From the NCBI RefSeq assembly GCF_001483745.1, contig NZ_LQBL01000031.1:1-64000 (forward strand): a stretch of DNA of 64,000 bases, written 5' to 3'. Both the position numbers and the translations under genes were made by a program. Below are positions 60,567 to 63,003 of the stretch, piece after piece. The stretch comes from Serinicoccus chungangensis (lineage in GTDB: Bacteria > Actinomycetota > Actinomycetes > Actinomycetales > Dermatophilaceae). Below the pieces are notes generated by a model that was not told the DNA's origin, made no database searches, and worked only from the letters and a program-made list of their open reading frames with translations. Each line of letters starts with the position of its first letter. The first letter of the stretch is position 1.

Positions 60567-61733
60567 ATGAGCCTCCCGGCACCTCCCCACGGGACCACGG
60601 TCTGGGAGCCGGCGTGGCAGGAGGCGCTCTACGGCCCCGGCGGCTTCTACCGCGCCAGCGCCCCGTCCGCGCACTTCGCGACCTCGGCCCAGGGCATCCC
60701 CGGGGGTGGGGAGCTGCTGGCCGCGGCGGTCGTCGCCCTCGCGCACCGGCACCGCTGCCGGCGCGTCGTCGACCTCGGGTGCGGCCGCGGCGAGCTGCTG
60801 ACGCAGGTCCGGCGGCTGGACCCGTCGCTGCACCTGACCGGGGTCGACGTCGTCGCCCGACCCGCGGGGCTCGACGTCGACGCGTGGCTGGTCTCCCCCG
60901 GCGGTGCGGCCCTGCCCGACGGGCTGCGGGACCTCGGGGCGACGCTGGTGCTCGCGCACGAGTGGCTCGACGTCGTCCCGTGCCCCCTCGTGGCCCGCGA
61001 CGAGACCGGGGTATGGCGCTCCCTCACCGTCGCCCCGGACGGCACCGAGCACCTCGGTCCGGTCCTGCGCGGCGACGACCTCGCCTGGGTGCGCCGCTGG
61101 CTCGACGACCACGGCGCTGACGACGACGGCGAGGCGACGGCCGCACTCGTACGCAGCAATCCTCCCTCCGGGGTGATGCATCGCGGCAGAGGAACACCTC
61201 CTGCAGGTGAGTGGTGCCGGCGCGGTGAGGTGGGTCGGCCGCGGGAGGCCGCGCTGGCCGACCTGGTCGGCCGGGTCCGCAGCGGCCTGCTGGTGGTGGT
61301 CGACTACGGCCACACGGCCGACGACCGGCCACAGGACGGCACCCTCACCGGCTTCCGCGGCGGGCGCGAGGTCGCCCCGGTGCCCGACGGCAGCTGCGAC
61401 CTGACGGCCCACGTCGCCGTCGACGCCCTGCTCGCCTCGCTCCCTGACCCCCACGCCGGACACGCTCCGGGCACGCCGCCGCCCGGTGCGGGACGGCCGG
61501 GAGGCCCGCCGCGGCTGGTCCGCCAGCGCGACCTCCTGGGCGAGCTCCTCGGCGACCCCGGACCGCCGGTGCCGCACGCGCTCTCCCGGAGCGACCCACC
61601 GGCATACCTCGCGGGGCTCGCCCGGCGCGCCGCCCTGACCACGCTCACCGGCGGGGCCCTGGGCGACTTCTGGTGGCTGCTCGTGCCGGTCCCACCAGAG
61701 CCCGGCGACGCCGCGGACCCGGGCATAGGGTGA
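60567..61733 (+). CDS. MidA/NDUFAF7-type SAM-dependent methyltransferase
   Basis: A 388-residue class I methyltransferase. The SAM-binding motif is [30 protein letters not shown] (near residue 70). The later segment [50 protein letters not shown] matches the MidA/NDUFAF7 family, whose mitochondrial member symmetrically dimethylates an arginine of the NDUFS2 (NuoD) subunit of complex I. The start ATG 60567 overlaps the divergent antiporter's alternative start. Around residues 190-217 is an in-frame insertion of different composition. It lies four bases upstream of an orphan nuoD-like gene on the same strand, so its likely substrate is encoded next door. This is inference. Confidence 0.85.
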
Positions 61734-61737
61734 GGGT

Positions 61738-62907
61738 GTGAGCAGCCGAGACGTGGACGTGACCCTGGGCGCCGCCGGCGTGGGCGGGCTCTCCACCACC
61801 GAGATGGTGCTCAACATCGGGCCGCAGCACCCGGCGACCCACGGTGTGCTGCGGCTGCGGATCACCGCCGACGGCGAGCGCATCACGGCCGCCGAGCCGG
61901 TCGTCGGCTACATGCACCGTGGCGCGGAGAAGCTCTTCGAGGTCCGCGACTACCGGCAGATCATGGTGCTCGCCAACCGCCACGACTGGCTCTCGGCGTT
62001 CAACAACGAGGTGGGGGTGGCGCTCACCGTCGAGCACCTGCTCGGCATGGAGGTGCCCGAGCGGGCCACCTGGGCACGCACCCTGCTCAGCGAGCTCGGC
62101 CGCGTGCTCAACCACCTCATGTTCCTCGGGTCCTACCCGCACGAGCTCGGCGCCATCACCCCGATGTTCTACTCCTTCCGCGAGCGCGAGGAGATCCAGG
62201 CTGTCATGGAGGAGTTCTCCGGCGGCCGGATGCACTTTATGGCGACCCGGGTCGGGGGGCTGCTGCACGACCTGCCCGAGGGCTGGCTGGACCGGGTCGA
62301 CGCGGCGGTCGCGACGGTCCGCGGCCGGATGCCGGACCTCACCGGCCTCGTGCTGGGCAACGAGATCCTGCAGGGCCGCACGCGGGGGGTCGGCGTGCTC
62401 GACCTCGACACGGTGCTGGGGTACGGCGTGTCCGGCCCCATCGCCCGCGCCTCCGGGCTCGACGTGGACCTGCGGCGCGACGAGCCCTACCTCGCCTACG
62501 CCGAGCTCTTCGCCGAGGGCGGTCCCGGGCGGGTGGTGACCCGCGAGGCCGGCGACTGCTTCGCCCGGCTCGAGGTGCTGGCCGAGCAGATCGAGGTCAG
62601 TCTCGACCTCGTCGAGGCCTGCACGGCCCGGCTGCGCGAGCTGGGCGAGGGACCGGTGAGCACCCGGCTGCCGAAGAAGCTCAAGGTGCCGGCCGGGGAG
62701 CACTGGTTCGCGGCGGAGAACCCGCTCGGCTTCAACGGCTACTACCTCGTCAGCCGCGGCGACACCGTCCCGCACCGGCTCAAGCTGCGCTCGGCGTCCT
62801 TCAACAACGTGCAGGTGCTCCGCGAGATGCTGCCCGGCACGGTCGTCGCCGACATGGTGGCGATCCTCGGGTCGATGTTCTTCGTCGTCGGGGACATCGA
62901 CAAGTAG
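61738..62907 (+). CDS. Orphan NuoD-like protein (complex I 49-kDa subunit family)
   Basis: A 389-residue homologue of NADH-quinone oxidoreductase subunit D/NDUFS2, of the stand-alone NuoD2-like type in some actinobacteria. It has [17 protein letters not shown] (His31, His35), [11 protein letters not shown] (Arg61, aligning with the methylated Arg85 of bovine NDUFS2), [15 protein letters not shown], and the C-terminal [24 protein letters not shown]. At the position of the quinone-binding tyrosine (bovine Tyr108) it has Trp84. No other nuo genes are present here. GTG at 61738 follows the methyltransferase stop by four bases. A strong hairpin follows its stop directly. Confidence 0.88.
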
Positions 62908-62957
62908 TTCTGGACATAGCTTTCTGGGGCCCGTTCCCCAGAAATCTATGTCCAGAA
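62908..62957. terminator. Long 22-bp-arm hairpin directly after the NuoD-like gene
   Basis: Bases 62908-62929 and 62936-62957 are inverted copies over 22 positions with one mismatch (left arm starts TTCTGGACATAG, right arm ends CTATGTCCAGAA) around a CCCGTT loop. It begins immediately after the TAG stop and is markedly less GC-rich than its surroundings. It may act as a terminator for the gene and for the convergent DUF3180 gene. Its length is unusual for one. Confidence 0.65.
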
Positions 62958-62963
62958 CGGCAG

Positions 62964-63003
62964 GTGGGCACGTGGGCACGTGGGCACGTGGGCACGTGGG
63001 CAG
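62964..63003. repeat. Octamer tandem repeat (GTGGGCAC)5
   Basis: Five head-to-tail copies of GTGGGCAC (the last ending in G) fill the space between the long hairpin and the end of the DUF3180 gene. The repeat is perfect apart from the last base, suggesting recent slippage. GGCAC/GTGGG combinations also make it partly self-complementary (CACGTG at each junction). Confidence 0.9.

Follow-up and report, generated by a model that had tools for sequence, protein, structure and literature searches.

The DNA analysed here, called the window below, comprises positions 1 to 64,000 of contig NZ_LQBL01000031.1 of Serinicoccus chungangensis, whose genome (G000) is 3.56 Mb in size. It carries a gene for a putative S-adenosylmethionine (SAM)-dependent methyltransferase of the MidA/NDUFAF7 family, followed after 4 nt by a gene for a protein resembling NuoD, the 49-kDa subunit of complex I (Table 1). 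On sequence grounds, comparison among genomes shows the latter to be nuoD2, encoding the D subunit of a second complex I, Nuo2 (A2, B2, C2, D2 and H2–N2, without NuoEFG), which has moved to a place beside the MidA gene.

Table 1. Features of the MidA–nuoD2 locus (positions in the window)
Feature	Positions	Strand	Remarks
MidA/NDUFAF7-family SAM-dependent methyltransferase gene	60567..61733	+	ATG 60567, TGA 61731-61733, 388 aa
In-frame insertion of ~30 residues in MidA	61119..61217	+	ends approximate; alignment with L005-L010
nuoD2, 49-kDa/NuoD-type subunit of the second, NuoEFG-less complex I	61738..62907	+	GTG start, TAG 62905-62907, 389 aa
His31 to His35 codons, HPATH loop	61828..61842	+	codons checked
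Arg61 codon (equivalent of NDUFS2 Arg85, HRGxE motif by cluster N2)	61918..61920	+	predicted MidA target
Trp84 codon, in place of the quinone-binding Tyr	61987..61989	+	
Residues 131-156 with Glu136 (quinone-site acid and presumed NuoH-contact region)	62128..62205	+	present in the window protein
Strong hairpin beginning at the nuoD2 stop codon	62907..62958	+	-42.7 kcal/mol for 62895-62975, z -6.96

The open reading frames and the Pfam matches of the products (PF02636, 42.2 bits vs. a cut-off of 23.3, and PF00346, 227.3 bits vs. a cut-off of 24) agree with an earlier reading of this DNA (the original prediction), which had placed a MidA gene immediately upstream of a nuoD-like one. That reading had also seen no other complex I genes nearby, and none was found in the window by tblastn with 24 G000 proteins as queries (A1, C1, E1 and K1 were not among them). 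The NCBIfam scores of NuoD2 were 361.6 for NF004739 (cut-off 360), 371.9 for NF008974 (522) and 369.3 for TIGR01962 (459.35). The stretch from Arg61 to Trp84 aligned without gaps to the best five solved NuoD-type chains among the matches listed, and the place of Trp is taken by Tyr in all five; together with the codons, this bears out the earlier statement that the arginine and both loop histidines are kept and that tryptophan stands where tyrosine is expected. Variants of this quinone tyrosine have reportedly been studied in Yarrowia. Of the quinone site, the protein has both the loop histidine (His35) and its acidic partner (Glu136). There is no CxxC motif anywhere in the protein, so the [NiFe]-binding motif of the group 4 hydrogenase large subunit is lacking. 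The four closest named NuoD2 proteins are from Serinicoccus and are 94–98% identical.

The G000 genome encodes two NuoD, two NuoB and one MidA. Its contig C11 carries a canonical nuo1 cluster and, approx. 17 kb further on, a second nuo set consisting of A2 and B2, then C2, then H2, I2, J2, K2, L2, M2 and N2, with no D, E, F or G. Because this second set has no D, the stand-alone nuoD2 is its natural missing subunit, and the two loci together give the NuoEFG-less 11-subunit gene content (A, B, C, D, H–N). The NuoB and NuoC partners, which had been thought to be missing, are thus encoded elsewhere in the genome. NuoD1 and NuoD2 are 34% identical. A nuoD2 gene lying apart from the nuo2 cluster has already been described in Streptomyces (PMC3765725, PMC8388888).

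In other actinobacterial classes NuoD2 (44–58% identical) is commonly found in place, within an A2-B2-C2-D2-H2-I2-J2-K2-L2-M2-N2 gene order that often comes straight after nuo1. At least two of seven nuo2 genes occur within 6 kb of D2 in 52 of the 69 NuoD2 loci of these classes, and A2, B2, C2, H2 and I2 all accompany it in 45. Fifteen of the remaining 17 have a displaced nuoD2 (families f12, f47 and f51), the other two (L163 and L170) being short contigs; conversely, four nuo2 loci from family f12 (L266-L269) are without a D. None of the 69 loci contained an F1 match, and the only G1 match lay within the neighbouring nuo1 of L150 (E was not queried). Among 198 genomes sampled across the phylum, NuoD2 and NuoB2 occurred together in 77, NuoD2 alone in two, NuoB2 alone in two and neither in 117 (p 5e-50); NuoB2 therefore accompanies NuoD2 in 77 of 79 NuoD2 genomes. 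The nuo2 set in the same genome and the nuo2-embedded orthologues in other classes rule out a partnerless NuoD, and membership of Nuo2 accounts for an orphan nuoD seen in many actinobacteria.

Several observations concern the organisation of nuo2. Extra genes were considered for the space that separates C2 from D2 in some operons (L121, L126, L135, L140, L145 and L106), which turned out to encode a long NuoC2 tail. In the first five of these loci the tail is acidic, Ala/Lys-rich and roughly 150–300 residues long, and a PF02636 match is absent from these five genomes. In G000 the nuo2 set is broken into A2-B2, C2 and H2-N2 by inserted genes (L088 17703-20000, L089 1-1019 and 1641-3500) that appear to be lipoprotein-like, protein-kinase-like, sigma-factor-like and others (names assigned by eye), unlike several relatives with contiguous sets (L246, L256, L258 and L270). 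Despite only two NuoB and two NuoD having been found, G000 has a third NuoH-like gene (G000:C1:8477-9319, 148 bits; also in G062 and G222), possibly an orphan hydrogenase-type membrane subunit. The same-family genome G309 (100% complete) carries a nuo2 set, its only NuoH match is of the H2 type and it has no PF02636 match; Nuo1 may have been lost there, with Nuo2 left as the sole complex I.

Residues were counted in 209 NuoD2 sequences (206 distinct) from 80 named loci and 129 other genomes, the window included, with possible overlap between the two sets. Arg61 is Arg and Trp84 is Trp in all 209, so that Trp84, far from being random in the family, is a signature of the NuoD2 clade and not noise. 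The tyrosine that it replaces is described as strictly conserved and as binding the quinone head group (PMC8119997). Both places differ in NuoD1, with Thr and Tyr, respectively, in 32 of 32 sequences (32 NuoD1 were found in 34 loci). Single-copy NuoD proteins of the phylum (10 sampled, 37–41% identical) all have Arg and Tyr.

In Yarrowia the arginine near cluster N2 is reported to belong to the D subunit, and in Thermus to the B subunit (Arg83), Yarrowia having Thr122 at the latter position; the two arginines occupy the same space by N2, and mutation of the D arginine leads to loss of the cluster (PMC8042128). In our alignments the column corresponding to Thermus Arg83 and Yarrowia Thr122 holds Arg in NuoB1 (25/25) and Thr in NuoB2 (88/88). 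The N2-side arginine thus swaps subunit between the two complexes of one genome. Since NuoB1 Arg is matched by NuoD1 Thr, and NuoB2 Thr by NuoD2 Arg, NuoD2 fits NuoB2 and not NuoB1. As a separate observation, the best solved matches of G000 NuoB2 are mitochondrial PSST/NDUFS7 chains and not actinobacterial NuoB (8e9g), the reverse of what was found for NuoB1; Thr at the switch place is common to G000 NuoB2 and these mitochondrial matches. The most diverged NuoD2 proteins are those of family f85 (L272-L275): three of the four have Gln for His35, Arg61 and Trp84 are kept and MidA is close; in L319 of this family no NuoB2, C2 or I2 lies near D2.

The MidA gene of the window is the only PF02636 gene found in G000. 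A profile of 30 MidA proteins (that of the window and 29 linked to nuoD2) matched the solved structures 4f3n (E 7e-21), 1zkd (E 2.8e-14) and 5ztz, an NDUFAF7 homologue (E 3.8e-9). The window protein alone, compared with the PDB by phmmer, gave no MidA structure and only Hen1, and no NCBIfam family scored above its cut-off. In 71 of the 80 named loci a MidA gene occurs within 8 kb of nuoD2, with no fixed side or strand: 63 have it upstream in the same orientation, 24 of these with at most 250 bp from one match end to the other, and eight have it downstream, five of them on the opposite strand. Of the nine named loci without it, three (L032, L049 and L056) are complete on both flanks; the remaining six break off upstream, the contig ending at most 2.5 kb from nuoD2. 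Of the 15 displaced nuoD2 genes in other classes, 13 share a contig with a MidA gene no more than 8 kb away. The neighbourhood, which might have been confined to close relatives, therefore spans Actinomycetia and other actinobacterial classes.

Among 197 genomes of the class to which the window belongs, 70 have both NuoD2 and MidA, seven NuoD2 only, nine MidA only and 111 neither. The nine MidA-only genomes were considered as breaks in the link; on inspection six of them have a diverged or split NuoD2 (two of these no more than fragments), leaving three (G209 and G290, which are incomplete, and G256). In the 198 phylum genomes the corresponding numbers are 57, 22, 9 and 110, and in the five of the nine MidA-only genomes examined at NuoD the arginine is present in all five. 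The enzyme–substrate module of the original prediction is upheld in its genetic part by the linkage and by the co-occurrence in the class; the 22 phylum-sample NuoD2 genomes without a PF02636 match speak against it, and the chemistry is what we infer. The insertion of approx. 30 residues in the window MidA is missing from relatives whose NuoD2 is 86–98% identical, and a 44-base segment taken from it is single-copy in the window.

A second genomic association concerns 2-oxoglutarate:ferredoxin oxidoreductase (KorAB). The korA gene lies near nuoB2 (102–7181 bp) in 20 of 34 class nuoB2 loci (L089 and L266-L268 left out) and is divergent in every linked case. In G000 it is 5.8 kb from B2, and its product matches TIGR03710 (653.2 vs. 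482.75 bits).

NuoH was searched genome-wide in 46 genomes, 41 of them with NuoD2, the H2 type being recognised at 327–349 bits and the H1 type at 375–432 bits. Among the 41, an H2-type NuoH was present in 16 and not found in 24, which we call arm-less; G248 (78% complete, no NuoH match) was left unscored. Four of the arm-less genomes are less than 80% complete and 20 are at 92% or more. Weaker NuoH-like matches occurred in G206 (hydrogenase-like, 97–125 bits, and a 45-bit piece), G214 (hydrogenase-like, 102 bits), G062 (136 bits, and an H2 stub) and G228 (a 33-bit stub).

At the cut-off used, 25 class genomes had NuoD2 without NuoB2; three of these (G200, G225 and G240) have an H2-type NuoH. 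In 16 of the other 22 the NuoB2 locus was examined (all but G206, G210, G248, G254, G291 and G371), and each contained a diverged NuoB2 beside NuoC2 and NuoI2. A2, H2 and J2–N2 were not seen in the stretches of 3–20 kb around B2-C2-I2 in these 16 genomes, the gene maps of such mini-clusters being based on tblastn. Because several B2-C2-I2 loci sit inside contigs of 95–893 kb, assembly gaps do not explain the missing arm. The neighbours of the mini-clusters (M48 peptidase, CorA, DUF520, NUDIX, nucleotidyl transferase, AtuA and a beta-helix protein) vary between groups and were rejected as members of the system.

On a NuoD2 tree of 65 rows, 54 of which were scored (30 with H2 and 24 without), a minimum of three changes was required, corresponding to losses in (i) an older clade of 21 genomes, (ii) the pair G342/G211 and (iii) G062. 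The last two of these are recent, and the G062 locus (L257) retains a remnant of H2, lying between C2 and I2. The older clade has a support of 99 in the Shimodaira–Hasegawa-like approximate likelihood ratio test (SH-aLRT), although long branches make its unity less certain than this value suggests.

Nineteen of the 24 arm-less genomes (16 older and three recent) were examined at NuoB2; other-class NuoB2 matches below 45% identity and NuoI2 matches below 38% were left out of the counts, as was L164 (a D2-less half) throughout. NuoB2 and NuoC2 are kept in all 19 and NuoI2 in 18, the stretch of the 19th stopping at a contig end; D2 is at another locus. All 19 NuoB2 proteins retain the four N2 cysteines, and all 18 NuoI2 proteins both cluster motifs. 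By contrast, pattern tests revealed the Q-chamber loop of NuoB2 in 69 of 69 sets with H2 vs. three of 19 without (the three recent losses), and the N-terminal helix of NuoI2 in 64 of 66 scored sets with H2, vs. its absence in 17 of 18 arm-less ones (the exception being G062).

In NuoD2, conservation was compared in 13-residue windows between the 21 older membrane-less rows and 30 rows with the arm. The three windows from residue 53 to 91, around Arg61 and Trp84, are equally conserved (0.82–0.87 vs. 0.84–0.87 with the arm). For residues 131-143, where the quinone-site histidine has its acidic partner, the mean drops from 0.85 with the arm to 0.31, and for residues 144-156 from 0.79 to 0.49; smaller declines affect residues 27-39 (0.95 to 0.73), 196-221 and 378-389 (0.88 to 0.67). 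Glu136 is present in 18 of 18 class sequences with the arm vs. four of 21 older membrane-less ones, and His31 and His35 are both kept in 18/18 and 21/21, respectively. Since Arg61 and Trp84 are kept where the quinone-site and membrane-contact segments decay, they would appear to serve something that needs neither the quinone pocket nor the membrane arm.

The ratio of nonsynonymous to synonymous substitution rates (dN/dS) could be calculated for 17 of 19 comparisons and was 0.07–0.61, one pair showing saturation at synonymous sites. The pair G237/G276 mostly gave 0.42–0.50, a moderate constraint. At the sequence level, the conclusion that purifying selection acts on the B2-C2-D2-I2 sets holds.

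The mechanism that we propose, and that we think probably correct, is as follows. MidA would very likely dimethylate Arg61 symmetrically, in the second shell of the N2 cluster of NuoB2, a modification that would let N2 form and set its potential, as proposed for mitochondria. Electrons may enter at NuoI2 from KorAB, directly or via ferredoxin, and pass along N6a, N6b and N2 to leave at a site formed by Arg61, His35 and Trp84. In genomes with the arm, that of the window included, this flow would drive the Nuo2 pump. In arm-less genomes the same B2-C2-D2-I2 core would act as a soluble oxidoreductase with a small non-quinone acceptor, one that could not be a membrane quinone reached through NuoH2; a Kor/ferredoxin-fed enzyme of this type is our best guess at the role of that core. 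Trp84, kept where the quinone pocket is gone, would belong to the acceptor site rather than to ordinary quinone binding. A broader claim, that a complex I core can leave the membrane, so that B2-C2-D2-I2 with methylated Arg and with Trp is a quinone-independent soluble ferredoxin/2-oxoglutarate-linked oxidoreductase whose arm is optional and was lost at least three times, is put forward tentatively, with the balance slightly against it. The original prediction had suggested a different electron acceptor or a partner outside complex I: the latter part does not agree with our results, as the main partners are complex I-type subunits, and the former is made plausible by the membrane-less genomes.

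A number of observations weigh against this mechanism. With regard to methylation, 22 of the 79 phylum-sample NuoD2 genomes have no PF02636 match and yet keep Arg61, which means that MidA is not indispensable; such a match is also missing from five of the 24 arm-less genomes, and E. coli is reported to have the same arginine in an unmodified state (PMC3750175). As for Kor, no korA was seen in five of the 34 class nuoB2 loci (at least 6 kb upstream seen; nine were undecided), in any of the 69 NuoD2 loci from other classes (of which 36 span at least 15 kb) or at the four other-class nuo2 loci L266-L269, and because of the 0/69 count the Kor link is taken to be particular to this class. Loss was checked genome-wide for NuoH only, the absence of A2 and J2–N2 being seen in the examined stretches. 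His35 is kept in all 21 older membrane-less forms, with which quinone-like chemistry is possible, and the window genome, with its arm, His35 and Glu136, possibly encodes a plain quinone reductase with a Tyr-to-Trp change.

The last point extends to the alternative that survives best, namely that Nuo2 is an ordinary ferredoxin:menaquinone proton pump, in which the Tyr-to-Trp change is a tolerated lineage mark and the membrane-less cases have no bearing on mechanism. The presence of His35 and Glu136 in every class sequence with the arm is in keeping with it, and 11-subunit complexes with conserved quinone-site features are known (PMC11238625). We nevertheless hold it to be rather unlikely, as the residue lost is the strictly conserved quinone-binding Tyr (PMC8119997) and Trp is invariant (209/209) even where the quinone-site acid, the NuoB Q-loop and NuoH2 are gone.

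It is also conceivable, though unlikely, that MidA acts on another substrate and that its link to nuoD2 is regulatory or historical. The NuoD2 genomes without a PF02636 match (22/79) would then be readily understood, as would the lack of an NCBIfam family above cut-off and of a MidA structure among the matches of the window protein alone. Such an explanation does not agree with a linkage that outlives changes of order and strand (13/15 displaced other-class nuoD2 genes still have MidA within 8 kb), with the rarity of class MidA without NuoD2 (three of 79 remaining after inspection), or with the profile match to the NDUFAF7 homologue and the invariance of the target arginine.

Fast evolution, the loss of conserved segments and the H2 remnant in L257 could mean that the membrane-less sets are functionless, decaying leftovers. 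We consider this improbable, given that NuoB2 and C2 persist in 19/19 and I2 in 18 with D2 at another locus, that the cluster ligands are kept and dN/dS stays at 0.07–0.61, that NuoI2 survives although the genes flanking it in the intact order are gone, and that PF02636 is still matched in 16 of the 21 older cases. Finally, an alternative D subunit swapping into the ordinary NADH complex Nuo1, for which the differential incorporation of NuoL2/NuoM2 into complex I suggested in Streptomyces (PMC3765725, PMC8388888) might be cited, is most improbable in view of the arginine/threonine mismatch with NuoB1, the co-occurrence of NuoD2 with NuoB2, the 45/69 loci with A2, B2, C2, H2 and I2 beside D2 and the low NuoD1/NuoD2 identity.

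The proposed core, Kor-fed and methylated, can be set against several known systems. Cyanobacterial NDH-1 is also an 11-subunit complex I-like enzyme without NuoEFG. The 11-subunit complex I of Desulfitobacterium is similar in composition (A, B, C, D, H–N) and its donor is perhaps a ferredoxin-type carrier (PMC11238625). Unlike these enzymes, Nuo2 has Trp for the quinone Tyr, coexists with a 14-subunit-type Nuo1, has its D gene beside MidA and has given rise to membrane-less offshoots. The nuo2 genes of Streptomyces (PMC3765725, PMC8388888) represent the same system, a second nuo set without N-module genes and with nuoD2 apart; the passages dealing with them list no nuoC2 and make no mention of the Trp, the Arg/Thr switch, MidA, Kor or membrane-less forms. 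NDUFAF7/MidA and NDUFS2 Arg85 (PMC3829151, PMC3750175), as described there, involve the same methyltransferase family and the same HRGxE arginine by N2, but MidA of actinobacteria has diverged (scoring 42 bits against Pfam) and is genetically linked to nuoD2, and only one of the two NuoD proteins of the genome carries the Arg. In the Chloroflexi 2M complex I the Q-module genes B, C, D and I are likewise reported to be separate from the membrane genes, which that system keeps elsewhere (PMC7117926), whereas here an H2-type NuoH was not found in 24 genomes and the quinone site decays in the older clade. The membrane-bound hydrogenases (MBH) and formate hydrogenlyases (FHL) of the group 4 [NiFe] type have homologous large and small subunits (PDB matches), the absence of CxxC setting NuoD2 apart. 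These hydrogenases are related to the complex I core, and some members are ferredoxin-linked.

Nuo2, the separate nuoD2, MidA and the HRGxE arginine were thus each known already. The Trp signature, the two-complex Arg/Thr switch, the MidA–NuoD2 link, the Kor link and the membrane-less core were not found in the literature searched, which excluded most subscription papers; the matches to 'NuoBCDI' that were looked at concerned other usages. Incomplete and EFG-less complexes are mentioned in PMC12361115, in the parts concerned without this case. Complex I is thought to stem from a hydrogenase-like module joined to an ion-pumping membrane module (PMC12361115). Here evolution seems to have run the opposite way, repeatedly, leaving a four-protein core that has the ligands of N6a, N6b and N2 but lacks NuoH2 and, in the older clade, an intact quinone pocket as well. 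Repeated loss of the arm with retention of this subunit and its Fe-S partners hints at a new job for the complex I core, which would allow N2, the adjacent arginine and the chemistry of the site to be studied apart from the pump. What arginine methylation does to N2 is a question left open in mitochondria (PMC8042128), and a bacterial system in which midA is often near the gene of its predicted target would be suited to asking it.

A few features of the mini-clusters and of the nuoD2 flanks remain to be mentioned. In 13 of 19 arm-less loci korA is arranged head-to-head with nuoB2. The hairpin at the nuoD2 stop codon is probably a transcript end or attenuator, and no T run follows it; downstream of it, at 62964-63002, there are almost five tandem GTGGGCAC units. 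ORF clustering, with gene names assigned by eye, placed folB/K, folP, folE and ftsH beside nuoD2 in 46, 38, 37 and 41 of the 80 named loci, respectively, an observation that concerns the window downstream of 63006 and L090.

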